Below, piece by piece: positions 13,071 to 40,342 of a DNA stretch of 64,000 nt (within the stretch, counting starts at the first letter, position 1; each line of letters starts with the position of its first letter). Both the position numbers and the translations under genes were made by a program. The stretch is from Cladopsammia gracilis. Taxonomy: Eukaryota > Cnidaria > Anthozoa > Scleractinia > Dendrophylliidae. The notes beneath the pieces were generated by a model. That model was not told the DNA's origin, did no database searches, and worked only from the letters and a program-made list of their open reading frames with translations. The stretch lies in assembly GCA_022457155.1 (NCBI GenBank), contig JAJGOT010000020.1, positions 576,001-640,000 of the forward strand, written 5' to 3'.

Positions 13071-13347
13071 AGTAGTTGATATTAGCCACTTTTGAGACAG
13101 TCCAAATTTCTCCCAGTTTAAGCAGTTCACAAGAATTCTAAAAAATCCTCAAAAATTCGTCGAGTTCCGCCATTTTTCACACAATTGATAATTTCTTCAA
13201 ATCTGCTCAATCTATCAGAATTGTGATGATTCTGCTGAATTTAGCTGGTGAAAAATTCTTTGTTAATTGCCTAAATCAGCAGGAAATGAATTGTGTGAAA
13301 ACTGGGAGAAATTTGGGCTGTCTCAAAAGTGGCTAATATCAACTACT
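13071..13347 (+). repeat. Polinton terminal unit, left (277 bp, palindromic tips)
   Basis: The outer and inner 49 or so bases of this unit are inverted complements (AGTAGTTGATATTAGCCACT… and …AGTGGCTAATATCAACTACT) with one mismatch. The middle of about 180 bp is unique. The same unit occurs at the right end in direct, not inverted, orientation. Confidence 0.93.
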
Positions 13348-13390
13348 GACTGCTAAAAATGAGCACAAAAAATAATCTTGAAATTAGGCA
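13348..13390 (+). repeat. Inner inverted repeat, left
   Basis: Begins GACTGCTAAAAATGAGCAC; its complement lies at 33241-33283 with a few differences. This is the true inverted part of the terminal repeat. Confidence 0.88.
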
Positions 13391-13468
13391 TTCTGAAAAA
13401 ATCTTTCCCTAAATTCTGCAGCGGCCAAATTCCATCCAAAACTCAAAAAAATCTCTTCCGGCAAGAAA

Positions 13469-15084: not shown

Positions 15085-15104
15085 GTGTCTAACGCGTTAG
15101 ACAC
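15085..15104. terminator. 20-bp perfect palindrome overlapping the integrase stop
   Basis: GTGTCTAACGCGTTAGACAC. The integrase stop codon (15097-15099 on the minus strand) lies inside it, so the transcript would end in a hairpin. It is the extended twin of 14609-14624. Confidence 0.7.
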
Positions 15105-16197
15105 CAAGCTTTTCCACATCGCTCAATGGAACCCAAGAATTAAATTTGTCAGGGTAACTTTTCCATTTTACAAGCGCGAGTTTTCGCTTATTATCGCGGC
15201 GAATAACTTTTTCAATTCGAAACACATCTTGCGTTGTCTTTTGAAGTTCCGCCTCGTAAAATGATCCGGTGATTGATTCTCCCAACAGATCAACTAATTT
15301 ATACGTTACAGGGTTTGTGTTCTTTATTTCGTCAATCACAAATATCTCCTCTGTCCAATTCGGGGTGAAACCCTTGTCAAATAATTGCCGTTTAAACTTT
15401 GAAATTCTCACCCTGTCGCCAACCCTGAATTTTGCTGGGTTGTGTTTAGCATAAATTAAATCTCCGTATAAATTAGCGAAAACCTTTTTCTCATTTTCCT
15501 GTTTGCTCGCCTCTGCGGGAGTCATCCGAATGCTCGAATGAAAACAGTGGTTATATTCATCCAGTAATTTGCCAAGTTTGTCCCAGTATATTGTTTTGTT
15601 GTTAGCAGAAAACATCCGGAAGAGTTTCTCCTTAAAAGACCTGTTCCAGCGCTCAACAACAGATGCCTTTTCTTCGTTTTGTGTTGTGTACAATTTTACC
15701 CCATTCTTATCAAGCAGATTTTTCATTGTTGCGTTGAAAAATTCAGACCCTTTGTCACTCCAAAGCATCTTCGGTTTTCGCCCCTTGAATATATCTCGGA
15801 AAGCATCAGCCACTGTTTGACCTCGCTTGTCTTTCAGGGGGCGAATCCAACCGAATTTTGAGAAAACATCGATCACCATCAGCAGGTATCTGATCCCTTT
15901 ATTCCACCTCGAAAATTTCCCCATCTCGACCAGATCAGCCGCCCAGATGTTGTCAATCCCATATGCTATGACTCGCCTCATTGGAAAGCGCCGCCTGATT
16001 GGCCGGTGTAATTCGTTTGCCAGATTTTGAGTCCACTGGCCTTCACTCAAAATCTTTTCCCGTTTTTTGGAGCGCCGAGACCCAGTTTTTGTTTTGCTTG
16101 AATTGTGTTTCTCGCCAAAGCATGACCCCACTGTCTTTCTTTCCAGGGAATGGCATCCAAAGCGGCAACCATTTTCCTGTCTGCTTCGTTCTTGCAT
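15097..16197 (-). CDS. Polinton integrase (retroviral-type DDE) with C-terminal chromodomain
   Basis: Catalyses integration of the element. In the ORF counted from the ATG at 16197, the catalytic acids are D88 (WAADLVEM), D148 (LWSDKGSEF) and E182 (VERWNRS). A C-terminal chromodomain at about 325-364 (FRIEKVI…VKWKSYPDKFNSWVP) may guide target choice. Conserved Polinton sequence (LANELHRPIRRRFP) begins only after the PLA2 gene's stop, so residues 1-45 are out-of-frame PLA2 coding DNA and that ATG may not be used. The integrase lies in the -1 frame of PLA2 and is joined to it by a canonical slippery site. I favour synthesis as a PLA2-integrase fusion by frameshifting. The next internal Met, at 15981, would drop the conserved N-terminal piece. 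Confidence 0.93.
   Translation of the reverse strand: MQERSRQENGCRFGCHSLERKTVGSCFGEKHNSSKTKTGSRRSKKREKILSEGQWTQNLANELHRPIRRRFPMRRVIAYGIDNIWAADLVEMGKFSRWNKGIRYLLMVIDVFSKFGWIRPLKDKRGQTVADAFRDIFKGRKPKMLWSDKGSEFFNATMKNLLDKNGVKLYTTQNEEKASVVERWNRSFKEKLFRMFSANNKTIYWDKLGKLLDEYNHCFHSSIRMTPAEASKQENEKKVFANLYGDLIYAKHNPAKFRVGDRVRISKFKRQLFDKGFTPNWTEEIFVIDEIKNTNPVTYKLVDLLGESITGSFYEAELQKTTQDVFRIEKVIRRDNKRKLALVKWKSYPDKFNSWVPLSDVEKLGV
16045..16068 (-). promoter_or_regulatory. Candidate -1 ribosomal frameshift signal, PLA2 to integrase
   Basis: Read on the minus strand: the heptamer AAAAAAC (16068-16062) is in frame as A_AAA_AAC at the end of the PLA2 gene. A 6-nt spacer (GGGAAA) follows. Then comes a stem with perfect 11-bp arms, AGATTTTGAGT (16055-16045) and ACTCAAAATCT (16032-16022), around a 12-nt loop. 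The PLA2 stop lies inside the stem. A -1 slip enters exactly the integrase frame (Lys-Lys-Arg). The layout matches known retroviral signals; function is inferred. Confidence 0.8.
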
Positions 16198-16841
16198 TTG
16201 CGCGGATCCGCTTTCTTTGCGCAGACTGAATAATCAACATCGTGCTGCATAGCAACTGCGTCTGTTTTTCCTGTGGGCTGCTGCATAATTTCGAGAATTT
16301 TTCCCTTTTCATCAAATCTGACTTGCTTATCCAATGGGTTCCAGGGGCCTGTATAATTATGCCCTGGGAGGGTGAAACCTTTCTTTGGTCTTGGCAGCTT
16401 TCCAATCAGGGAATGAACATCTAAAGCACCCCCATCCAAATCTGCTCGATCTGTTTTATATTTTCTGTTTGGCCTAATCGCCGTGGACAGCTCATTCATC
16501 ATATCAGCAGAGGTTTTGGCAAGAAATGGTTTCATCTTGTCCAGGGCAAAATCCAATGCTTTCTTTTGAGTGTTTTTATTTCGCAACAATTCACTGGCTC
16601 CATAACGACCCATTTCAACTGTCTTTTTTCCCAACCAAGGCAGCGCATGCGCGACGCCAGTCAGCGCAAGTTCACCGATGCCCTCACCTTGTGAGGGCCG
16701 ACTCAGTTTCCCGACACCGCTCCGCGGGTCGCTCCGCTCGCTTTCACAAATCTTGTTTTTTTGATTCCGCAGGAAGCGCAATGGCAAAACCACATCTTTC
16801 TGCCATTTTTTGCAGTCTGGAATCCAGTTGGTTTCACGCAT
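16047..16841 (-). CDS. PLA2-domain virion protein (parvovirus VP1u-like)
   Basis: 264 residues from the ATG at 16841, which directly follows an in-frame TGA. Residues about 155-225 match the secreted-type phospholipase A2 fold shared by parvovirus and Polinton/adintovirus proteins. A calcium-loop-like segment, LPGHNYTGPWNPLDKQ (158-173), is followed by the catalytic pair His200-Asp201 in MQHDVDYS. Residues 54-82 are amphipathic (GIGELALTGVAHALPWLG). The family releases virions across endosomal membranes; that role here is inferred. The first 46 or so codons overlap the small Cys-rich gene in another frame, so the real N-terminus is uncertain. The 3' end holds the frameshift signal to integrase. 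Confidence 0.85.
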   Translation of the reverse strand: MRETNWIPDCKKWQKDVVLPLRFLRNQKNKICESERSDPRSGVGKLSRPSQGEGIGELALTGVAHALPWLGKKTVEMGRYGASELLRNKNTQKKALDFALDKMKPFLAKTSADMMNELSTAIRPNRKYKTDRADLDGGALDVHSLIGKLPRPKKGFTLPGHNYTGPWNPLDKQVRFDEKGKILEIMQQPTGKTDAVAMQHDVDYSVCAKKADPRKCKNEADRKMVAALDAIPWKERQWGHALARNTIQAKQKLGLGAPKNGKRF

Positions 16842-16881: not shown

Positions 16882-17316
16882 TCAATCGAAATATTCTTTT
16901 ATGAATTTCTCATTCTCCCCCGAGTCAGTCAGACTGAGAGGCTGGAGAATATCATAGAAATCTTTCCCCTGCGACCATTGATGGAGGAAGAAGAGGCAAT
17001 AATACCCGCAAAGAACGCTGTCTATGTTTTGATATTGACTGCTGTTCCAAATCACCGGTTTGGAACTTTTGAATTCCTGGGGAAATCCCATCCCAAAAGA
17101 GTCGAAATACCACGTGAATTTCTGTCCGGGGGCGCAGCACACCCAGTGAGTTCCGGCATTTTCAAGCGAATCAAGATTGATAATGCAGGGGCTGTGTTCT
17201 CGGGGCATGGCTTCATCCCTGGCGAAAATCCCTTTGAAATTGGGAATTTTCAGAAAATCAATCCACTGGAGAAGATCAAGGTTGCTCAGGGGTTTGTTCA
17301 CGAATTTAGGTTTCAC
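16882..17316 (-). CDS. Adenain-type cysteine protease
   Basis: Virion maturation protease of the adenovirus/Polinton family (C5-like, Ulp1 fold). Numbered from 17316, the catalytic set is His57 (GTHWVCC), Asp72 (YFDSFG), Gln94 or 96 (SSQYQN) and Cys103 (VLCGYYC). The conserved N-terminal segment (LSNLDLLQWIDFLKI) is present but has no ATG ahead of it. The first candidate codon is GTG at 17316, overlapping the pX stop, and the frame stays open upstream inside pX. The protease is in the -1 frame of pX, where a 7-A heptamer is in frame (17397-17391). Expression as a pX-protease fusion is therefore likely; a non-AUG start is the alternative. Confidence 0.92.
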   Translation of the reverse strand: MKPKFVNKPLSNLDLLQWIDFLKIPNFKGIFARDEAMPREHSPCIINLDSLENAGTHWVCCAPGQKFTWYFDSFGMGFPQEFKSSKPVIWNSSQYQNIDSVLCGYYCLFFLHQWSQGKDFYDILQPLSLTDSGENEKFIKEYFD

Positions 17317-18185
17317 AATATTGCCTCGAGAACTGGGATGTTGTTGAATGGACTTTTCGATCCCAGCAGAAGTCCCGTTCCTTTTTTGGATTTTTTTCCC
17401 ATCCCAATTTTTCGTCCCCAGGTTCCGATGAATGGAGGCGGGCGTTGGAAGGGAGCTCCCAATCTTGGAGCTCCTTTTCCTTTGGGGCGACCAACTCTTG
17501 GCGCTCCTTTTCCCTTTGGGCGACCAACTCTTGGAGCGCCTTCTCCTTTCAGTCGAGGTCGCGGCTGCGCCGCTCCCTTCCCAAACAAATTTTTCACCAT
17601 GTCCAGCGCCAGTGGAATTCCGATGGAAGCCAGCACAGTTCCCAACAATCCACCAGATTGTTTTGCTGATGGTTTTATCGTCAGTTGTCCTCCTGATTTC
17701 AGGGCAGTCAAAATATCCTGTTTCTGCTTATTTGTCAACAAATGTTTATTGTCAATCAGTTTCTGAATTTTATCTGGGGGAATGAGAAACCCCCCCGTTT
17801 GCCCGCCTCCCTTCCCGCTTATCTTTTTCACGACTTGACTCGCTCCTTCACTCGCCAAACCAGCCAATGCTGACAGTCCAAGTGTCTTTGCCAGGGTAGG
17901 CGCCAGGGAACGAGCCAGGGGAACAATAGCAGAGAAAAGACTTCCGCCTTGCTTCATTACCTTTCGGATTTGCGTTTTTGATATCTTGATTTCAACTCCC
18001 TTTCCCTGAGATGCGGCTTTGCCGATTCGTTTTATTTGATTGGCTGTCAGCATCAGTTCATCATTTCCGCTTGTTTGTTTGCCACCCAATCTCAGGGTGA
18101 TAGGGCTTTTTGTTCGGAATGCTCTTCCAAGCTTCTTTTTTTGCCCTTCCGACAGATTTACTTTATATGGGTGATATGTTGTCAT
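17313..18185 (-). CDS. Basic pX-like virion protein
   Basis: Starts at 18185 (TTTAAAATG); an upstream ATG at 18200 lacks that context. About 290 residues. The N-terminal part (LSEGQKKKLGRAF…ITLRLGG…LTANQIKRI) is typical of a conserved Polinton virion protein. A hydrophobic Ala/Leu-rich segment (IVPLARSLAPTLAKTLGLSA) follows at about 90-110. A Lys/Arg/Gly/Pro-rich tail has a triplicated GRPKGKGAPR-type repeat. It could bind DNA or membranes, like adenovirus core or minor proteins; this is inference. It lies directly after the capsid gene. Its 3' end overlaps protease in the -1 frame. Confidence 0.8.
   Translation of the reverse strand: MTTYHPYKVNLSEGQKKKLGRAFRTKSPITLRLGGKQTSGNDELMLTANQIKRIGKAASQGKGVEIKISKTQIRKVMKQGGSLFSAIVPLARSLAPTLAKTLGLSALAGLASEGASQVVKKISGKGGGQTGGFLIPPDKIQKLIDNKHLLTNKQKQDILTALKSGGQLTIKPSAKQSGGLLGTVLASIGIPLALDMVKNLFGKGAAQPRPRLKGEGAPRVGRPKGKGAPRVGRPKGKGAPRLGAPFQRPPPFIGTWGRKIGMGKKSKKGTGLLLGSKSPFNNIPVLEAIL
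17333..17397 (-). promoter_or_regulatory. Candidate -1 frameshift signal with H-type pseudoknot, pX to protease
   Basis: Minus strand: AAAAAAA (17397-17391) in frame as A_AAA_AAA, preceded by GG. Downstream, stem 1 is GGACTT (17375-17370) with AAGTCC (17355-17350). Stem 2 is CTGGGAT (17366-17360) with ATCCCAG (17339-17333). These interleave as an H-type pseudoknot. The heptamer-to-stem gap is 15 nt, longer than the usual 5-9. Supports a fusion, less cleanly than the PLA2-integrase site. Confidence 0.6.
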
Positions 18186-18218
18186 TTTAAATGATAACAT
18201 ATGTTTTCAGATCACACG

Positions 18219-19499
18219 TCACACGATAACCAGCTCATTTCCAATCTTATCGATTTTCACTTCTTCTTCATAGAGAACAATGGCATGTACATTGAAGTTT
18301 GCAGCTGCATCTGCGTTCAATCGATATCTGAATATCAACTGCTTGGGATCTCTTGCTGGTTTTTCAGTTTGATAAGTCAGATCGAAATAGATCAACGGGA
18401 AAAGAGAATTGAAATTGGCCAGATTCAGTTGCGTTCCAGTGTTGTAGTCATTTTTCCTCATTGCATAAGCCATGACATCCTGGAAAATCCTTACTTTTGA
18501 TTCACTGTCGTACTCTTTTTCCGGGTGGAAAACTCCGTTTCCATATTCCAGCCGGCAGTTCAACAAGGATGAGTTTTCATTGTCCGCATTCAGCTTGAAA
18601 GTGTCCATCAGATAAGGGCTATCTTCTTCTTTAGCGGCATCATTGGTTCTTTTAAGATAAACAAAAATATGCTTAACATTGTCAATACTTGCGGATATCT
18701 GGAAGAATCCTGATGACTGCGTAGGAGCTGATTCTGCATATATCTCCCTCAGATATTTCCATTGCGTTTCTTTCAGGAATGAACTGACAAATTTGTCATA
18801 AAGAGAATCTTTCGGTGTCAATCTGGGGACCCAAAGCAAAAACCTATTCACAACAACTCTTCCAGCATCAGTGCCATTAGCCATATGAATTAATTCATTA
18901 TCCTGTTGAATCTTAATCTCAAATTGCAGCTGCATGGACACAAGCATCTTATCCTCCAACTCTTCGAAAAAGGAAAAGCGATTCAGGGAAATGATTGTGT
19001 TAATGTTCTTTGCACCGTGGGTTCCATCGTCTCTCACTGCTTGCGATTGTATCCTGCGAGCTTCAAATCCTGCATTCGTATTAGCGGTTGTTGCATCAGT
19101 ATCCAAATACCAGAAACTGTTCTTGGCGACTGATCTGCTGAAGTCATCGGAGTATTCTAGCAAATTTTTAATAAAAGTAACGTTGTGCAGATTATCAGTC
19201 TCATAAACAATCTTTCCAGCAGAACTAATCTTCAGGTGATTAATCAGGGAATGAGCGCCATTGATCACTGTGATTCTGTCAGCTGCGGCATACCCAGCGC
19301 CGTCTGCTATTTTCTGGAGTTGAAATTGCACTTCAAAATAAGCATTATACCAATCATAGAATGCGGATCGGTCATTAATCGTGAATTTATAACCACTTTT
19401 TTGTTGATGTTGCCCATTAGCTGGAGCTCGGATTGTGTCATTCAGCTGGAAGCGCACTAATTCATTTCTTTGAAGATATTCATTCGATCGAAAAGCCAT
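18219..19499 (-). CDS. Polinton major capsid protein (double jelly-roll, hexon-like)
   Basis: 426 residues from a TATAAAATG start. The sequence matches the widely conserved Polinton family often annotated in animals as F54H12.2-like. It has a RSAFYDWYNAYFEVQF segment near 50-65, INGAHSLINHLKISSAGKIVYE near 80-100, and FIKNLLEYSDDFSRS near 108-122. The alternating beta-rich pattern without membrane segments fits a capsomer protein. Polinton capsid proteins of this kind are double jelly-rolls forming the icosahedral shell. It lies between the small basic protein (6-bp gap) and pX (33-bp gap to the preferred start). Intact. Confidence 0.85.
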   Translation of the reverse strand: MAFRSNEYLQRNELVRFQLNDTIRAPANGQHQQKSGYKFTINDRSAFYDWYNAYFEVQFQLQKIADGAGYAAADRITVINGAHSLINHLKISSAGKIVYETDNLHNVTFIKNLLEYSDDFSRSVAKNSFWYLDTDATTANTNAGFEARRIQSQAVRDDGTHGAKNINTIISLNRFSFFEELEDKMLVSMQLQFEIKIQQDNELIHMANGTDAGRVVVNRFLLWVPRLTPKDSLYDKFVSSFLKETQWKYLREIYAESAPTQSSGFFQISASIDNVKHIFVYLKRTNDAAKEEDSPYLMDTFKLNADNENSSLLNCRLEYGNGVFHPEKEYDSESKVRIFQDVMAYAMRKNDYNTGTQLNLANFNSLFPLIYFDLTYQTEKPARDPKQLIFRYRLNADAAANFNVHAIVLYEEEVKIDKIGNELVIV

Positions 19500-19505
19500 T
19501 TTATA

Positions 19506-21647: not shown

Positions 21648-21713
21648 TTTATATCCCAGAAACACAAATTTGGGATGTAGAGCAAGATAAAGAACGCCAT
21701 GTTCATTAATAAA
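21648..21713. promoter_or_regulatory. Divergent start region between virion blocks
   Basis: A 66-bp spacer between two oppositely oriented TAAAATG starts. It contains an ATCCCA…TGGGAT inverted pair (21654-21675) and AT-rich steps on each side. Probably two back-to-back promoters. Confidence 0.55.
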
Positions 21714-22331
21714 ATGAAGATTCCAAATTATGATTGTCAGGATCCAATCACAAATTTCAAACAACTTCACCCTTTCATGCCGGATCGAACTTTCAGAATG
21801 TTGATCTGTGGCCCTTCAGGATCGGGGAAAACAAATGTTCTCCTGGATATGATCCTCCGCCCGCTGCTCTTCTACGATAAAATTTATCTCTATGCGAAAA
21901 ATCTTGACCAAACCAAATATCAACATCTGCTGAAAACATTTCGCCCATTCAGCAAAGAAGCGGGGTATGACGTCGTGGAAGCATCCCCGGATGAAATCAT
22001 CCCAGTTTCTGAATTGTCAGGGGAGAATCAAAAGCTGGTTGTTTTCGATGATTTTGTTTCCGAAAAAAAACAAAAGCCATTGATTGATTATTTCATTCAG
22101 GGCAGGCACAAGAAATGTTCTGTGATTTATCTTTCGCAAAGTTATTTCGGAACACCAAAAGATATCCGTCTGAATTGCTCGCATTTTTGCATCTTTGAAT
22201 TCCCCAGCAACAAAGAAATTACGGCGATCTGCAGGGAGAACAATGTCAGCAAAGAAGATTATCGGAAAGCAACGCATGATCCGTTCTCTTTCCTGTATGT
22301 GGATAAGCCGAGGAAATTCATTGCCAATTGA
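21714..22331 (+). CDS. A32/FtsK-type genome-packaging ATPase
   Basis: 205 residues from the ATG at 21714, chosen over 21699 because it has the AATAAAATG context. Walker A is GPSGSGKT (33-40) and Walker B is KLVVFDDF (107-114). A sensor-like SVIYLSQSYF follows at about 137. This is the packaging ATPase of Polintons and NCLDV-type viruses, which drives DNA into preformed capsids. The stop overlaps the first in-frame ATG of the fibre gene (TGATG). Intact. Confidence 0.93.
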   Translation: MKIPNYDCQDPITNFKQLHPFMPDRTFRMLICGPSGSGKTNVLLDMILRPLLFYDKIYLYAKNLDQTKYQHLLKTFRPFSKEAGYDVVEASPDEIIPVSELSGENQKLVVFDDFVSEKKQKPLIDYFIQGRHKKCSVIYLSQSYFGTPKDIRLNCSHFCIFEFPSNKEITAICRENNVSKEDYRKATHDPFSFLYVDKPRKFIAN

Positions 22332-26565: not shown

Positions 26566-27060
26566 GAAACTTTCCTGAATTTTTGAGTTCATTTTCGCAG
26601 GAAAATGAACTCCAAAAAAGTTGACTTCCCCCATCACGTGGGTGGGGAAGCTGAAATCATTTTTCTGGAAGAATTTTTTGATTTTATTTTGATTGAAATT
26701 TTATAAAATCTTTTGGAGAAATAATTCCCAGAGAAAACCTGGGAATGGATAAAATGCAACGAATTTACTGGAGAAAAAGAACATAAAAAAACACTCCCAA
26801 CAATGTTTTTATTTGTAAAACATGTTCAACGATGGGGGTCAGAAATAGCGCGCCTTTTTTCTCCGGGAAAATAGAATTTCGCCAAACCCACAGACAGTTG
26901 TGGGGTTTTTTGCCATTTTCTCCTGAGTTCAGCAGAAAAGCAGGGCACAGAGGGCAGTTTTTTCCCCACAATGGCCCAAAATAGACCCCGGATTGCAAGG
27001 AATTCTCCCCGGATTCATTTTTCCATTTGAGAATCGTTGATTTCCCCAGTGTTTTTTCCC
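26566..27060. promoter_or_regulatory. Hairpin-rich non-coding region
   Basis: Several separate hairpins: GAGTTCATTTTC/GAAAATGAACTC with a GCAG loop (about 26584), CTTCCCC/GGGGAAG around CACGTG (about 26626), ATTCCCAG/CTGGGAAT (about 26726), and AACCCACA/TTGTGGGGTT followed by TTTT (about 26885). No coding frame is supported. With the flanking repeats it is a candidate origin or control region. Confidence 0.5.
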
Positions 27061-27067
27061 CGGGAAT

Positions 27068-27950
27068 CTATTCCAGAAAAATGAATTTTTCTGGAACAGA
27101 TATCTGTTTCAGAAAAATGGATTTTTTCCAGAGCAAAAAAATACAGAGCAAAAATGGATTTTTTCCAGAGCAAAAAAATACAGAGCAAAAATGGATTTTT
27201 TCCAGAGCAAAAAAATACAGAGCAAAAATGGATTTTTCTGGAACAGATATCTGTTTCAGAAAAATGGATTTTTTCCAGAGCAAAAAAATCCAAAGCAAAA
27301 ATGGATTTTTCTGGAACAGATATCTATTCCAGAAAAATGGATTTTTTCCAGAGTAAAAATGGATTTTTCTGGAACAGATATCTGTTTCAGAAAAATCTAT
27401 TTTTTCCAGAGCAAAAAAATACAGAGCAAAAATGGATTTTCCTGGAACAGATATCTGTTTCAGAAAAATGGATTTTTTCCAGAGCAAAAAAATCCAAAGC
27501 AAAAATGGATTTTTCTGGAACAGATATCTATTCCAGAAAAATGGATTTTTTCCAGAGCAAAAATGGATTTTTCTGAAACAGATATCTATTCCAGAAAAAT
27601 GGATTTTTTCCAGAGTAAAAATGGATTTTTCTGGAACAGATATCTATTCCAGAAAAATGGATTTTTTCCAGAGCAAAAATGGATTTTTCTGGAACAGATA
27701 TCTATTCCAGAAAAATCTATTTTTTCCAAAGCAAAAAAATCCAAAGCAAAAATGGATTTTTCTGGAACAGATATCTATTCCAGAAAAATCTATTTTTTCC
27801 AAAGTAAAAAAATCCAAAGCAAAAATGGATTTTTCTGGAACAGATATCTATTCCAGAAAAATGGATTTTTTCCAGAGTAAAAAAATCCAAAGCAAAAATG
27901 GATTTTTCTGGAACAGATATCTATTCCAGAAAAATAATTTTTTTCCAGAG
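27068..27950. repeat. Palindromic minisatellite, 12 copies of a GATATC-centred dyad
   Basis: Units of about 60-75 bp combine a dyad (TTTTCTGGAACAGATATCTG, then TTCCAGAAAA) with TTTTTTCCAGAGCAAAAA spacers. Twelve dyad copies lie between about 27090 and 27930. Long ORFs on both strands (for example 27191-27880 +) come from stop-free units and are not supported as genes. Confidence 0.88.
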
Positions 27951-27963
27951 CAAAAAATCACAA

Positions 27964-27994
27964 AAATTTTTCAGAATCAAATTCTGAAAAATTT
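27964..27994. terminator. 14-bp perfect stem-loop
   Basis: Arms AAATTTTTCAGAAT and ATTCTGAAAAATTT with a CAA loop. It lies just past the stop of the minus-strand gene ending at 28004, followed by a second 8-bp hairpin (TGAAGTTT/AAACTTCA) that overlaps that stop. Confidence 0.6.
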
Positions 27995-28003
27995 GAAGTT
28001 TCC

Positions 28004-28627
28004 TCAAACTTCATCGTCCTCATTTTTGTCCTCAAACTCATCGAATTCCGAGGCAGCCTGCACTATTTCCTCCACCAAAACTTCGTCCACAATGCATGTG
28101 ATTGCTTTCACATTTCCGCAGAAAAGATGTTTGATGGAAAAAACGACTTGCCCGCGGAGAGGACAGCCAATGAGTTCTTTTTGCTTCAAGATGGGTTTCT
28201 TTTTCCCATCCGCGCACAGCTCCCAAAATCTGCAGGAGAAATCCGTTGTGGGAATTTTGGAGGGATAGATTTTTGCGTAAATCTTTTTCTGCTCGGATTT
28301 GTCAGTTTTCACGAGAATGAAATCTCCCTCCTGAAATCGAGCAAAAGACGGGGAAATCTCTTTGATTGCCTGCTTCTTTTTCATCGCAGCAGAGTTGAAA
28401 TGTTTTTCCAGATTGTTGAAGAAACTAATGAACTCGCTCGGAATAGTGATGCCCGTAGAAAACGATTCACCCTCATGAAGGAAAATCTTGAATTTGGTTT
28501 GGAGTTTCACTTTGAGCCGTGAGTCCATGTGGAGGCAGGGGAGAAGGCAGAAATTAATTTTTCCAGAAGATTTCTTACAGGGGTCTCCGAGAGAGCAGTC
28601 GGGGATAGATATTTTCGCGGGATTCAT
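28004..28627 (-). CDS. Hypothetical protein, 207 residues
   Basis: Start at the ATG 28627 (AAAAAATG). The longer open frame to 28849 overlaps the small upstream gene and looks like read-through of it. Cys residues cluster near the N-terminus (PDCSLGDPCKK, FCLLPCLHM). A mixed alpha/beta middle and a very acidic tail (FDEFEDKNEDDEV) follow. Acidic tails are common in DNA-binding replication proteins, so an accessory replication role is possible, but I recognise no family. Confidence 0.55.
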   Translation of the reverse strand: MNPAKISIPDCSLGDPCKKSSGKINFCLLPCLHMDSRLKVKLQTKFKIFLHEGESFSTGITIPSEFISFFNNLEKHFNSAAMKKKQAIKEISPSFARFQEGDFILVKTDKSEQKKIYAKIYPSKIPTTDFSCRFWELCADGKKKPILKQKELIGCPLRGQVVFSIKHLFCGNVKAITCIVDEVLVEEIVQAASEFDEFEDKNEDDEV

Positions 28628-29412: not shown

Positions 29413-32400
29413 ATGTCTTTAGCTGCATGGCAATCATTTGCGCGATCGACAAATTTGCGAGGTTGGTCGCGATTGAAGAAAAATGACTTAATGAAATTTT
29501 TAGTTGAAAATCTTTGGCAAGGTGGAGGCATTGATCAGCCCAAAATGAACAAAGCAGCTCGTTTGAGAACTCGGAAAAAAACGAAAAGCCAACCCTCTAG
29601 ATGCCGAAAATGAAAAAATTGATGTGCCTATTTTGATTCCGGAAAGAAGAATTTTTCCTTCCAGAGCCATTCCCAGAGTGATTGAAGAAAACACAGGAAC
29701 GGTTTCGGATTGGCTGAATTGGTTGGAAAATGTGGATGATGTTGATATTCGGAGAAGAGCCAATCCCGCGGTGGAAAGATTGAAAAAGCAAATCGCTGAA
29801 TTGTGGAAACAAAGGTTGGTCGTGGAAGAAGAAAAATCCGCTTTGAAAGGATTCGCGAAACAATTTATAATTCAAGGAGATGATTCCCCAACTCCCCAAG
29901 AATTTTTTCCGGAAAGCAAGATGGCATATTCTCAGACTCCTGCGAGAAAATCCACAAACAAAAGTGAAATGCGTTCTGAATGTAGAAATGTCCCAAACCA
30001 GTTTGGCTTCTGGAGAGGAAATAATTGATGACCCATTTTTCCATTCCCGGCAGAAAAAGAATCTGGGAAACAACCCGGAGATTGTGGATGAAATGGAAAG
30101 AGAAATAATTGAAAATTTGGAAAACTTCAATCGCAAGGGAAGTAATTGGATGTTTGAAAAAGTTTTGCGTTTGGAAATTCATTTTGTGCGCTGGAACCCA
30201 CTGCGAGGGTCTTCTTGGATTGCTTTGCTCCCAGACTTGGAGAACAAGAAAGCCGTGATCAACATGAAAAATGAAGATAACATGTGCTTCAAATGGTGCT
30301 TGGGCAGAGCCGCAAATATGGTTGAAGTCCACCCAGAAAGAATCACACCGGATTTGCGAAAACAAGCGGAAGACATGAACTGGGATGGTTGCGAATTCCC
30401 CATGGCCGTGGACAAAATCAAGTTTTTTGAAGCAAGAAATCCGACAATTTCAGTGAATGTTTTTGGCTGGAATGGATCTGTTTTTCCCCTGAGGATTACC
30501 GAGGAAGAAAAGGCATTTCACGTGGATTTGATTCTGCTGACAGAGGAATTCAAAACGCACTATTGCCTGGTGAAGAATTTCTCTCGCCTGGCATCCTCTC
30601 AAGTTTCACGCCATGGGCATGAAAGATTTTTCTGCAAAAGATGCCTCAATTCATTTCCCAGCGTGGAAAGTTTGAAGAAACATAAAGCCATTTGCGGAGA
30701 CTTTGAGGCGGCAAGGATTGAAGTTCTAGGAGGCGAATGCTCTTTCCAAAACTATGGGAAAATGCTGCATGTGCCTGTGGTGGGTTATGCGGATTTTGAA
30801 TCTATTCTGAAACCTTTGGGGAAAACTCACGAGCATATTCCTTGTGGATTTGCGTTTCATCTCGTTTCCCATTTTTGCAAATGGAACCCGTGTTGAAAAG
30901 AGCAAAAGATGAAAACGAAGAACTCCCCAAAGATTTCATTCGGGAATTGATTTCCCATGTGAGGCAAGCTCACCTGAGTTTGCCGAAAAAGGAAATGTCC
31001 CCCATGACCAGCCAAGAATGGAAATCATTTCGAGAAGCCACGGTATGCTGGTTGTGCCGAGAAGAATTCGGAGAAGAAGACCTGTCCAAAGTCAGAGATC
31101 ACTGCCATTTCTCCGGAAAATTCAGGGGAGCAGCGCACAGATCTTGCAACAGAAAGTTTCAGCGGCCAAAATTCACCCCTGTGTTTTTCCACAATCTCCA
31201 AAATTATGACGCGCATCTTTTTGTGCGAGCTTTGGGAACAATGGATGAAGTTTTGAGCGTGACATGCATCCCCAACAACGAGGAGAAATATATTTCCTTC
31301 TCCCTAAAGTTTGAGTTGAAAAAAGAACGAAGAGAGGTAGAAGAGGGGAAATGGAGAGAATTTTCCGTGAAACATGAAATTCGATTTCTGGATTCCTTCA
31401 AATTCACGCTGATGGGATTGGAATCGCTGGTGAAGAATCTCCCCAAAGAAGAACTGAAAGAAACCACCAGATTTTTTGGAGAACGCAGCGAGTTGATGCG
31501 CCGAAAAGGAGTTTATCCCTATGAATTCATGGATGGGTTTGATAAGTTTGAGAAAAAACTGCCAAAGAAAGCCGCTTTTTTCTCCCGATTAAATCAGGAG
31601 AAAGTGAAGAAAAAAGATTTTCAACACGCTCAGAAAGTCTGGAAAGAATTTGAAGTGAAAAACATGGGAGAATATCACGATCTTTATTTGAAAACGGATG
31701 TGTTGCTGCTTGCTGATGTCATGGAAAGTTTCAGAAAACTTTGCGAAGAAAACTATGAACTGGATCCAGCTCACTTCTTCACTGCCCCCGGAATGGCTTG
31801 GGACGCAATGTTGAAAATGACCGGAGTGAAATTGGAACTTCTGGAAGATGTGGATCAGTTGTTAATGATTGAAAAAGGAATCAGAGGGGGAAACGCAAAT
31901 GCATTCAAGCGATTTGCAAAAGCAAACAATAAATATTTGAAGAATTTCAACCCCGATAAAGCTTGTCGTTTTCTGGTTTATTTGGATGCAAACAACCTTT
32001 ATGGGTGGGCAATGTCACAGCCTCTTCCAGTTGGGGAATTCCAATGGATGAGCGAGGAAGATTTGCAAAACTGGGAAAACTTTGTGAATGCTGAAGGTCA
32101 AGGTTGTATTCTTGAAGTTGATCTCATTTATCCCAAAGAACTGCATGACGACCATAATGATTTTCCCCTGGCTCCAGAAAGTTTGAAACTGGGTGGAGTG
32201 GAAAAGTTGACGCAAAATCTGAGGGACAAAGAAGGCATGGTTTTGCATGGAAAAAACCTGCAACTCTATCTTTCCCTGGGAATGAAACTGAAAGCCATCA
32301 GGCGAGGAATTTCATTCAAAGAGGAACCTTTCATGAAATGTTACATTGACAAAAACACAGCCCTGAGAGCCAAGGCAAAAAATGCATTTGAAAAAGAGTT

Positions 32401-33247
32401 CTTCAAACTGATGAACAACTCCGTGTTTGGGAAAACCATGGAAAACTTGAGAAAACGAGTTTCGATTGAACTGGTGAAAGATGTTGAAAGGGCAGAAAAA
32501 TTGATTAACAAGCCCAACTTCGCAGACGTGAAGATTTTTGATGAATTTCTGATTGCGGTCAAGATGAGGAAAACGCGAGTGGTCATGAACAAACCCATCT
32601 TCGCTGGGATGTCAATCTTGGATCTCTCCAAAACTTTGATGTATGATTTCCATTATGGGTATGCGAAGAAAAAGTGGGAAAATTGTTCTGTTCTGTATAC
32701 CGACACAGATTCTTTGGTGTTGGAGATTAAAACGGCAGATTTCTTCGCTGATATTACCGCAGATGTACCAAAGTGGTTTGACACAAATGATTTCCCAGAA
32801 AATCACCCAGCTGTTCTGAATGGATTGCCAATTGTGAAAGAAAACAAGAAAAAGATTGGGCTGATGAAAGATGAATGCGGGGGTGCCATTCTGAAAGAAT
32901 TTGTCGCCCTGAAACCGAAACTGTATTCTTTCCTGATGGAGAAAAATGCAAAAACCACGGAGGAACAAAAGGCAAAAGGAGTGAAAAAATGCATGATCAA
33001 AAAGAGTTTGAGGCATGAAAATTTTGTGAAATGTTTGAAGACAAAAGAAAAGCAACTCAGGAGGCAAAGTATCTTCCGCAGCAGGGGGCATCATTTGTTT
33101 ACGGAAAACATGGCCAAAATTGCGCTGAGTGCGGAAGATGACAAAAGAGTGATTCTGGGAAATGGAATTGACACGCTGGCTTTGGGGCATTGGAGACTGG
33201 GAGAAATCTTTACCCCGACAGAGCGTGAAGTTTTGGAAAGTGCCTAA
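29413..33247 (+). CDS. Protein-primed family-B DNA polymerase (pPolB), three frame breaks
   Basis: Replicates the element. The N-terminus is SAP-like (LRGWSRLKKNDLMKFL). Further on are a C2H2-type finger (FFCKRCLNSF, about 30633), the exonuclease motif YADFES (about 30786) and an HNH/endonuclease VII-like Cys-His cluster (CWLC…DHCHFSGKFRGAAHRSCN, about 31048-31155). Polymerase motifs follow: A (LDANNLYGWAMS, about 31983), B (KLMNNSVFGKTMEN, about 32406) and C (YTDTDS, about 32697). The frame changes at A7 (about 29576), T6 (about 29905) and a T5 run (about 30872), the last between the exonuclease and HNH regions. All three are homopolymers, and no slippery heptamer fits. Assembly error or recent decay is likely. 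The catalytic core 30899-33247 is uninterrupted. Confidence 0.9.
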
Positions 33248-33283
33248 TTTCAAATTATTTTTTTGTGCTCATTTTTAGCAGTC
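33241..33283 (-). repeat. Inner inverted repeat, right
   Basis: Complement of 13348-13390 with a few differences; overlaps the end of the polymerase gene by 7 bp. Confidence 0.88.
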
Positions 33284-33560
33284 AGTAGTTGATGTTAGCC
33301 ACTTTTGAGACAGTCCAAATTTCTCCCAGTTTAAGCAGTTCACAAGAATTCTAAAAAATCCTCAAAAATTCGTCGAGTTCCGCCATTTTTCACACAATTG
33401 ATAATTTCTTCAAATCTGCTCAATCTATCAGAATTGTGATGATTCTGCTGAATTTAGCTGGTGAAAAATTCTTTGTTAATTGCCTAAATCAGCAGGAAAT
33501 GAATTGTGTGAAAACTGGGAGAAATTTGGGCTGTCTCAAAAGTGGCTAATATCAACTACT
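33284..33560 (+). repeat. Polinton terminal unit, right (277 bp, direct copy of left)
   Basis: Identical to 13071-13347 in the same orientation, except one base (GATGTTAGCC here, GATATTAGCC on the left). Only its palindromic tips make the element's outer ends inverted. Confidence 0.93.
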
Positions 33561-38195: not shown

Positions 38196-39984
38196 ATGGG
38201 GTTAGTTTCTAGAGAAACTGTGGTGCTGCGTCGGTGGGGGTGGAGCACAAGAATTTGGTTTTATCGACTGAGTCGATAAGGTAAATTAGCCACCGTAAAA
38301 AGATTCGAGAAAGCTGACGTTTCGAGCGCTAGCCCTTCGTCGGAGCGAATCAAGGGATTGTGGGTAGTGTGTGGTTTTATATAGTAGGAGGAGCTCCGCC
38401 ATTGGTGGAAATTTTGTGACGTGAAAAACAAATGTAAATTAGTTGAATGAAAAGCGTTCGTTAATTCCGTGGGGTTTGAGAGTGCCGATTCGAAAGATGA
38501 TTTTTTGTTCTAAGTTTTTACGGCTTTCTGTGTTGCCCTGGTGTAGGGAAACGCCACGAATTGTCATGTGTTGCTTAGAATGGTTAGCAAGATTGAAATG
38601 ACGCACGACTGGTTTGGATGCGTCTTTGTCATTTTTTTCAACGTCTCGGAGATGTTCTCGAAAACGTACCTACCTACCTTTTTGTAGGCTACGTCGAAAA
38701 GAAATTTTTCGATCAGTACCAAGGAACTAAACCCGAGCTCTACGGCCGCTACATCGATGACTGCATTGGCGCTACCTCTTCCAGTAAAGAAGAACTTAAT
38801 CAGTTCATAACTTCTGTCAATACTTTTCATCCGGCTCTAAAATACACCTGGGAAATTTCTGAAACCTCTGTCGCTTTTCTTGACATCAATATTTCGATCA
38901 ACGGCAACAGTTTATCCACAAGTGTGCACTACAAACCTACAGATTCCCACAGTTATCTGTTACATTCATCCTCACATCCATCACACGTTAAAAACGCCAT
39001 TCCGTATTCTCAATTTCTCAGACTTCGACGTCTTTGTAGTGATGACTCCGATTTTTCCAACAAATCGGAAGAAATGTTCTAGTTTTTCAAGAAACGTGGG
39101 TACCCTGACTCTGTTGTTAAAACGGGCCAACAACGTGCACAACAGGTCGACAGGCAATCAGCACTACAAACATCACAAAAGGAAGAGAACGAGAGAATTC
39201 CATTCACCCTCACTTTCCACCCACACAATCACACAGTCAAAAGCATCATTTTAAAAAATTTCAAATTGCTCCAAAACGACCCAGAAACTGGCAGAATTTT
39301 TTCACAACCCCCACTAATTTCATTCAAACGTGACAAAAATATAGGCAACTTTCTAGTTACGAGTACACTGAAATCTGACGATGAACCGGGAACTTTTAAA
39401 TGCGCACGCACACGATGCAACACTTGTCCTTTCATTCACAACGCCAACAAAATAACGGGACCTAAACGATCTATTAAAATCACTGATCGTTTTACATGCA
39501 CCTCCGTAAATTTTATCTACTGCATAACATGTACTTTTTGCAAAAAGATATACATTGGCGAAACAGGGAGGAGACTGGGCGACCGTTTTCGAGAACATCT
39601 CCGAGACGTTGAAAAAAATGACGCATCCAAACCAGTCGCGCGTCATTTCAATCTTGCTAACCATTCTAAGCAACACATGAAAATCTGTGGCGTTTCCCTA
39701 CACCAGGGCAACACAGAAAGCCGTAAAAAAATCATCTTTCGAATCGGCACTCTCAAACCCCACGGAATTAACGAACGCTTTTCATTCAACTAATTTACAT
39801 TTGTTTTTCACGTCACAAAATTTCCACCAATGGCGGAGCTCCTCCTACTATATAAAACCACACACTACCCACAATCCCTTGATTCGCTCCGACGAAGGGC
39901 TAGCGCTCGAAACGTCAGCTTTCTCGAATCTTTTTACGGTGGCTAATTTACCTTATCGACTCAGTCGATAAAACCAAATTCTTG
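38196..39984 (+). mobile_element. Penelope-like element with inverted flanking repeats
   Basis: Bounded by a perfect 14-bp duplication TAATTGTTAGATAG (38182-38195 and 39985-39998). An approximately 400-bp segment at the right end (39584-39984) is present inverted at the left (38247-38666). This arrangement is known for Penelope-like elements. The element is 5'-truncated; only the C-terminal RT and the endonuclease remain. Confidence 0.88.
38668..39793 (+). pseudogene. Penelope-like RT fragment plus GIY-YIG endonuclease, one nonsense codon
   Basis: One open frame except for TAG at 39080-39082. The upstream piece holds the end of the reverse transcriptase with the YIDD catalytic motif (ELYGRYIDDCIG, about 38735). 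Downstream is a Cys-containing linker (RTRCNTCPFIHNA) and a GIY-YIG nuclease (FIYCITCTFCKKIYIGETGR, with DRFREHL, about 39510-39605). The family copies RNA into DNA and nicks target DNA. Earlier RT motifs are missing, so this copy is dead. The frame before 38668 is read from the inverted flank and is not RT. Confidence 0.85.
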
Positions 39985-40342
39985 TAATTGTTAGATAGTG
40001 TTTCACAGATGAAGTAAAATCACTATAAGAGGCGAAAATATTAACTTAAGGAAAAAGGTCAGAATAACCTTGAATGAGTAGTTGTTTTGACTTATTGTAT
40101 TAGTTACAATCAGTTACAATGGTCATTTTGACCATTCTTAAGAGGCGAAAATATTAACTAAAGAAAAAAGGTCAGAATAATCTTGAATGAATAGTTGCTT
40201 TGACTTACTGTATTAGTTTCAGTCCGTTAGACTTTATTATTTCAGTAACAGCTGATGCCATATGTCAAACTGACATTTTAACTATTATTACGTGGTTATA
40301 ATTTTAAGAAAAACGACAAAACGTTTTAGTTTGAAAAACATG

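Follow-up and report, generated by a model that had tools for sequence, protein, structure and literature searches.

A probable -1 ribosomal frameshift signal, with a conserved heptamer and a predicted pseudoknot, between the phospholipase A2 and integrase genes of a coral Polinton

How is the integrase of a Polinton made when its reading frame is the -1 frame of the phospholipase A2 (PLA2) gene that precedes it? The question arose from a stretch of 64,000 nucleotides of the coral Cladopsammia gracilis (contig JAJGOT010000020.1, positions 576,001 to 640,000), hereafter termed the window, in which both ORFs lie on the minus strand. Polintons are thought to stand near the root of many eukaryotic double-stranded DNA viruses, and we know of no established route for the expression and delivery of their integrase.

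The element extends from approximately 13.3 to 33.3 kb of the window and is bounded by 102-nt inverted repeats; it has both the terminal inverted repeats and the length of about 15-20 kb that characterize Polintons/Mavericks. The name Polinton is sound, because PolB, an A32-like ATPase, PLA2 and an rve-chromodomain integrase are all present. Its main features are the following.

13299-13400: left terminal inverted repeat, 102 nt, 90% complementary to 33231-33332
33231-33332: right terminal inverted repeat, partner of 13299-13400
30800-33247, plus strand: type B DNA polymerase ORF (PF03175, E 2.7e-26)
21681-22331, plus strand: A32-like packaging ATPase ORF (PF04665, FtsK/A32-type, E 6.8e-15)
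16047-16841, minus strand: PLA2 ORF, the upstream 0 frame, a parvoviral VP1u-type phospholipase A2 (PF08398, E 2.1e-9), with its ATG at 16841
15097-16233, minus strand: integrase open frame, -1 frame (rve PF00665 and Chromo PF00385); the part from the heptamer is 15097-16062, stop included
17313-18206, minus strand: pX ORF, a possible second -1 frameshift donor
16882-17727, minus strand: adenain-like protease ORF, in the -1 frame of pX

Apart from two weak matches of the protease ORF, to PF00770 (E 0.012, below the cut-off) and, in the company of antibody hits, to 1avp (E 0.0033), we use pX and adenain as presumed names. A double jelly-roll capsid gene was not recognized by profile, the ORF at 18219-19505 having no Pfam or PHROGs match. 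An ORF of 341 aa (29871-30896, plus strand), also without a Pfam match, overlaps the start of the PolB ORF in a different frame and could represent damage in the window copy, an intron or something else. Within the element, a long repeat array occupies 27041-28268, with units such as FFPEQKWIFLEQISIPEK and several frames open on both strands; beyond it, a perfect inverted repeat of 260 nt, with arms 1.2 kb apart, spans 38247-39985.

At the junction of PLA2 and integrase, the following elements were located.

16062-16068, minus strand: slippery heptamer A_AAA_AAC (AAAAAAC), of the X_XXY_YYZ form, read CCA AAA AAC in the PLA2 frame
16056-16061, minus strand: 6-nt spacer GGGAAA
16045-16055, minus strand: 5' arm of pseudoknot stem 1, AGATTTTGAGT, exactly complementary to the 3' arm (11 bp)
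16033-16044, minus strand: 12-nt loop of stem 1
16022-16032, minus strand: 3' arm of stem 1, ACTCAAAATCT
16034-16041, minus strand: 5' strand of pseudoknot stem 2, GGCCAGTG, with one A.C mismatch to its partner (by eye)
16001-16008, minus strand: 3' strand of stem 2, CACCGGCC
16047-16049, minus strand: PLA2 stop TGA, overlapping the TTG at 16050-16048, where homologous proteins receive their start Met

The heptamer, 6-nt spacer, 11-bp stem, 12-nt loop and -1 relation had been described in an earlier, sequence-only reading of the window, and their coordinates proved exact. Its statement that conserved integrase sequence begins only after the overlap was likewise borne out, the end of the overlap being the point at which the integrase starts to align with its homologues (alignment A1). 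The stem is indeed perfect in the window. By plain minimum free energy the 77-nt fragment was not unusual (z -0.52; 49 of 200 shuffles folded equally well). That reading had not noticed that the stem is one half of a predicted H-type pseudoknot.

We consider it highly probable (about 0.9) that programmed -1 ribosomal frameshifting yields the integrase, as a PLA2-integrase fusion; the geometry, with its conservation and covariation, supports this, as does the absence of any start codon that is conserved. A ribosome on the PLA2 mRNA would arrive at CCA AAA AAC, where the H-type pseudoknot 6 nt downstream would hold it back and permit a backward slip of one base. The slipped ribosome would pass the PLA2 stop in the integrase frame and produce PLA2-...PKKREKILSEG...-integrase, and the majority of ribosomes, unslipped, would produce PLA2 alone. 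Slippage in vivo, and its rate, are what we infer here. In parvoviruses PLA2 is a domain of the capsid protein (VP1u), and the PLA2 of the Polinton might carry integrase into virions at low stoichiometry; that the integrase is perhaps packaged by way of the fusion is a tentative proposal, to which we give odds well short of even.

The evidence that we regard as decisive for the putative frameshift signal is its conservation across copies. The genome searched (878 Mb) yielded at least 124 close integrase matches (124 scored of 4857 candidates). Loci were integrase matches taken from the search lists irrespective of their junctions, with the exception of L101-L114, picked as integrase-only matches, L115-L120, picked as fused frames, and L157-L160, picked with long or fused frames in view; two duplicates (L081 of L072, L082 of L064) were removed before counting. 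In the window's lineage the heptamer was kept in integrase phase in 131 of 134 copies, a count that excludes L157 (no match) and L158-L160 (fused, in frame with PLA2) and includes L046, where an upstream indel places PLA2 in the integrase frame. It was present in this phase in all 98 of the distinct copies, which form 44 distinct 78-nt junctions, and was followed by TTTTGAGT in all of the first 60 loci. Among 36 further copies (L121-L156) it was found in 33, being lost in L140 and L155 and altered to AAAAAAT in L150. The integrase is nonetheless open in L140 and L150, which counts against the frameshift reading.

Within the window's lineage, the heptamer was unchanged throughout 97 of the first 98 copies (the other had incomplete flanks), as were 2 of 64 upstream third codon positions of PLA2. 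On a tree of 133 copies, which includes L140 and L150 and omits L155, AAAAAAC was present in 131, and by parsimony the seven heptamer sites showed 0, 0, 0, 0, 1, 0 and 1 changes, two in all; 34 upstream third codon positions of PLA2 averaged 9.8 changes in the same copies, with 2 of the 34 at zero. Could the arrangement be the relic of a single ancestral ORF, broken by an indel and amplified in its broken form as a dead lineage? Fused proteins are common in relatives and the copies are very numerous, as would then be expected. However, the integrase shows a dN/dS of 0.114 at a dS of 1.22 between the window and the diverged copy L081, indicating continued purifying selection and, therefore, more than recent copying alone. 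The same split and heptamer also occur in two deeply separated lineages, and the heptamer is frozen while its neighbours vary, so that we hold this explanation to be extremely improbable.

The sequence-only reading had named copies whose integrase has its own conserved ATG and no heptamer as evidence against itself. Ahead of its conserved part, the integrase frame proved to lack an ATG in 43 of 98 copies (an upstream stop is in view in 96 of the 98). Elsewhere, upstream ATGs occur at -129 only (26 of 98) or at both -63 and -129 (17 of 98), and in the window at about 16197, as would suit an ordinary overlapping gene that starts at its own -1-frame ATG inside PLA2. The 43 copies refute such a gene in their own case, and in 30 of 98 copies a stop in the integrase frame lies just 33 nt before the heptamer; we give this explanation scarcely any credence.

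Integrase synthesis could instead begin on the TTG overlapping the PLA2 stop, by stop-start reinitiation in which TTGA takes the role of ATGA; the -1 relation would then be a by-product. Homologous proteins begin MSEGW.. at this place, TTG was present in 90 of 98 copies and in 2 of 14 of the second lineage described below, and a 4-base NTGA overlap always yields a -1 frame. This overlap was in fact our first idea, and it was dropped once copies with TCG appeared. TCG stands at the place of the homologous start in the other 8 of the 98 copies; 6 of the 98 have neither ATG nor TTG, and their integrases are without internal stops. In a later batch of 33 heptamer-bearing copies the codon was TCG in 26, TCA in 2 and TTG in 5, and the PLA2 stop was lost or moved in the 26 TCG and 2 TCA copies; the 14 second-lineage copies comprise 11 with TCG, 2 with TTG and 1 with TAG. 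The tail of PLA2 past the heptamer is itself variable: counted from the heptamer start, the stop lies at 19 nt in 90 of 98 copies and at 25, 43 or 184 in the others. Database proteins may owe their Met to a TTG that a gene finder took for a start, and initiation at TTG leaves the frozen heptamer and pseudoknot unexplained. We consider it very unlikely.

Two further processes could join the frames at the level of the transcript, and we rate both as most improbable. Splicing of another exon to the integrase frame is possible for nuclear DNA elements and would account for the missing ATG, but no tract resembling a 3' splice site was seen at the junction by eye, and the heptamer, its spacing, the pseudoknot and the natural PLA2-integrase open frames would have no explanation. 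Polymerase slippage on the A6 run could add an A to some transcripts and give the same fusion, just as L115 and L160, with one more A in the run, are in-frame fusions. Against this, A6 is short for slippage by Pol II, the codon ahead of the run varies (CCA, TCA, CAA) and the RNA pseudoknot would have no role.

Copies with the integrase in frame with PLA2 had been named in the sequence-only reading as a finding that would tell against a programmed frameshift. Such copies do exist: open frames longer than 500 aa made up 3 of the 124 genomic matches scored, and L115-L120 have fused frames. A PLA2-integrase fusion is therefore tolerated. Yet the in-frame copies that were examined look like secondary products of indels; by eye, the joining indel differs among the six, that of L115 being in the A-run.

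The spacer measures 6 nt in the window's lineage, within the range of about 5-9 nt that is usual for -1 sites. The RNA structure predicted for the commoner copies, which lack a CAG codon in the loop, is formed by pairing of GGCTGG in the stem-1 loop with a downstream CCAGCC or CCGGCC. Stem 2 of these copies mostly has 6-8 contiguous pairs (5 in L068, 10 in L144). The extra CAG codon marks the window's own subfamily, in which the window's stem 2, read by eye as GGCC.A.GTG with CAC.C.GGCC, consists of 4 bp, one A.C mismatch and 3 bp, and in which L018 forms all 8 pairs. A group of 39 copies (27 distinct) has CATAAACCA downstream. In most of these copies stem 1 is AGGTTTCGAG with CTCGAAACCT or CCCGAAGCCT, and stem 2 is GATTGG-CCAATC, which some copies lengthen to CGGATTGG-CCAATCCG or CTGATTGG-CCAATCAG; stem-2 variants were GACTGG-CCAGTC in L064 and GGCTGG-CCAGTC in L083. 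The stems of L130 (loop insertion) and of L133, L135 and L138 (substitutions) were read by eye. L130 and L140 carry an insertion of about 27 nt with an inverted repeat, AAACCGCC..GGCGGTTT, inside the pseudoknot loop, which leaves the integrase frame unshifted.

Compensatory change in the stem had been suggested as a check on the signal, and the outcome favours it: changes on both sides of pairs were detected for both stems in the window's lineage. In 24 close rows, 99.3% of cells were paired and there was no covariation past one wobble pair. For stem 1, 98.8% of 484 cells were paired across the 44 distinct junctions (9-55% in slid controls), and two pairs (A-U/G-C and U-A/C-G) had changed on both sides. 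For both stems together, 7 rows gave 96.6% of 119 cells paired and 3 double-changed pairs (slid controls 13-51%). The 27 rows with an 8-bp stem 2 gave 90.8% of 513 cells paired and 5 double-changed pairs (slid controls 13-51%), figures to be read with the 3 double-changed pairs of the +1 slid control and with one stem-1 pair that is open in 20 of the 27 rows. When partners were shuffled in the 44-, 7- and 27-row sets, the double-changed cells and the covariation score were never reached (0 of 500); the number of double-changed pairs was reached in 129, 75 and 16 of 500 shuffles, respectively, and further pair types were not raised over shuffled partners in any of the three sets. The covariation probably reflects, for the most part, few independent events.

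To estimate chance formation of the stems, 6 junctions were each shuffled 20,000 times with their dinucleotide content kept. A rightly placed contiguous 10-bp stem appeared 31-86 times per junction, and such a stem together with a contiguous 6-bp stem 2 appeared 0-9 times. This double stem is present in 4 of the 6 real junctions and absent from the window copy L001, whose stem 2 has 4 contiguous pairs, and from L127, whose stem 1 has 8.

A second lineage was found in the same genome with the fused protein P0127 as query; its integrases are closest to P0127, which is 61% identical to the window's integrase. All 14 of its integrase-only copies (L101-L114) carry the heptamer in integrase phase, and in 13 of the 14 PLA2 stands in the -1 relation, the PLA2 match of L104 lying in another frame. 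Conservation of the heptamer and of the -1 relation in other copies, which had been proposed as a test of the signal, thus holds in both lineages. Stops in the integrase frame occur in some of the second-lineage copies (L106, L112). In 11 of the 14, 13-14 bp are possible between GCCGTCGAGTGAAG and CTTCACTCGGCGGC, with a loop of 52-55 nt, 7 nt past the heptamer; in 12 rows, including L112, 97% of 168 cells were paired, a value that shuffled partners equalled in 272 of 500 cases. We therefore put this long stem forward as a suggestion; it does not amount to a compact pseudoknot. In L106 and L107 the spacer is 10 nt and the stem 7 bp, and GATTGG-CCAATC was also seen by eye. The 125 best-scored genome matches to another query, P0018, were all at most 70% identical, and a P0018-like lineage was not found among them.

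Scans of IMG/VR with the integrase and with alignment A1 yielded no relatives, and the evidence from other species is therefore at the protein level only. Among 232 listed integrase homologues (the best 120 of each search), a script detected a PLA2 motif alongside the integrase in 31 proteins, and P0103, P0122, P0125, P0129 and P0215 were recognized by eye as further fusions. The fusion P0146 stands for 98 members, and Oculina patagonica is named for P0129, P0212 and P0215. These are predicted proteins, in which exon structure is invisible. Four PLA2-integrase proteins (P0132, P0140, P0158 and P0176), of about 430-450 aa and with shorter linkers, are perhaps a separate group; at least three come from jgi or lgn sources.

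Another 21 homologues have an N-terminal extension without a PLA2 motif, which looks like the -1 frame of PLA2, and 13 of the 21 read KKR at the junction (by eye). KN lies within 14 residues of the LGLG motif in 87 of 120 listed PLA2 homologues, with two more found by eye, and LGLGLN was seen by eye in 25 of these 120. Should KKR and KN be translations of a single stretch in two frames, its sequence would be AAAAAAC. For P0196 and P0218, which read FKL, pairing with LN-stop would give TTTAAAC or TTTAAAT, provided that the frames belong together.

The pX and protease ORFs stand in a -1 relation as well (overlap 17313-17727, minus strand), and the overlap contains one further feature.

17382-17400, minus strand: A-rich run GGGAAAAAAATCCAAAAAA, a candidate slippery stretch

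Of 60 loci, 14 were dropped for a short flank or lack of a match; among the remaining 46, 41 show no ATG in the protease frame ahead of the conserved part, as far as the frame is visible, and 5 show at least one. Sixteen other loci included 13 (L161-L165, L167, L170-L176) with pX in the corresponding frame and, upstream, an A-run of slippery type; an upstream ATG is present in three of the 13 (L170, L172, L173), and L166, L168 and L169 were not evaluable. By eye, a possible pseudoknot (GGACTT-AAGTCC, CTGGGA-TCCCAG) is present in the overlap in the window's lineage. We regard the putative pX-protease frameshift site as a lead. It may be, at odds that we place a little below even, that Polintons express two enzymes of a single late gene block in the retroviral manner: -1 slips would fuse protease to pX and integrase to PLA2, and each enzyme would reach the capsid as the extension of a minor virion protein, at a ratio both low and fixed. 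Families of Polintons would exchange one canonical heptamer for another (A_AAA_AAC, U_UUA_AAY), as the protein ends suggest.

No published report of a PLA2-integrase frameshift site was found in literature searches. The available text of PMC3671162 does not mention the word frameshift, and that of PMC8097293 mentions frameshift mutations only; neither text describes a PLA2-integrase site. One close precedent comes from the same virus group: slippery sites for -1 frameshifting were predicted by KnotInFrame at the 3' end of the adintovirus Penton gene, and a similar relation was noted for Hexon-Adenain fusions, whereas in the available text no site is named for integrase or PLA2 and no conservation test is given (PMC11071296).

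The conserved signal ties the integrase to a virion-type PLA2 and would offer a testable route for integrase packaging. It would mean that a lineage of DNA viruses arrived at the Gag-Pol strategy independently. On the practical side, gene finders may mis-annotate the Polinton integrase, giving it a false start or calling it a pseudogene.

Three known systems invite comparison. In bacterial IS3-type elements, OrfA-OrfB is made by -1 frameshifting; there, as proposed here for the Polinton, slippage at an A-run gives a mobile element its DDE enzyme in the form of a -1 fusion. In contrast to the Polinton, IS3 is bacterial, its OrfA is the DNA-binding part and there is no virion. The 1a/1b site of the coronavirus IBV has an H-type pseudoknot and a UUUAAAC slippery site. 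The likeness extends to a stem 1 of about 11 bp, a short loop 1, a 6-bp stem 2 and a 6-nt spacer, but the IBV site joins parts of a replicase, at UUUAAAC. The retroviral gag-pro and gag-pol frameshifts of MMTV and EIAV use A_AAA_AAC, and with these the Polinton junction shares the heptamer, a putative stimulatory RNA structure, the -1 frame and the order of a capsid-type protein followed by an integrase-bearing one. Unlike these retroviruses, the Polinton is a double-stranded DNA element with PolB, in which a phospholipase rather than Gag lies upstream and the integrase comes without reverse transcriptase. The junction appears to be a translational device that is already known, here in a genome of a new kind, and the comparison of copies supports it well.
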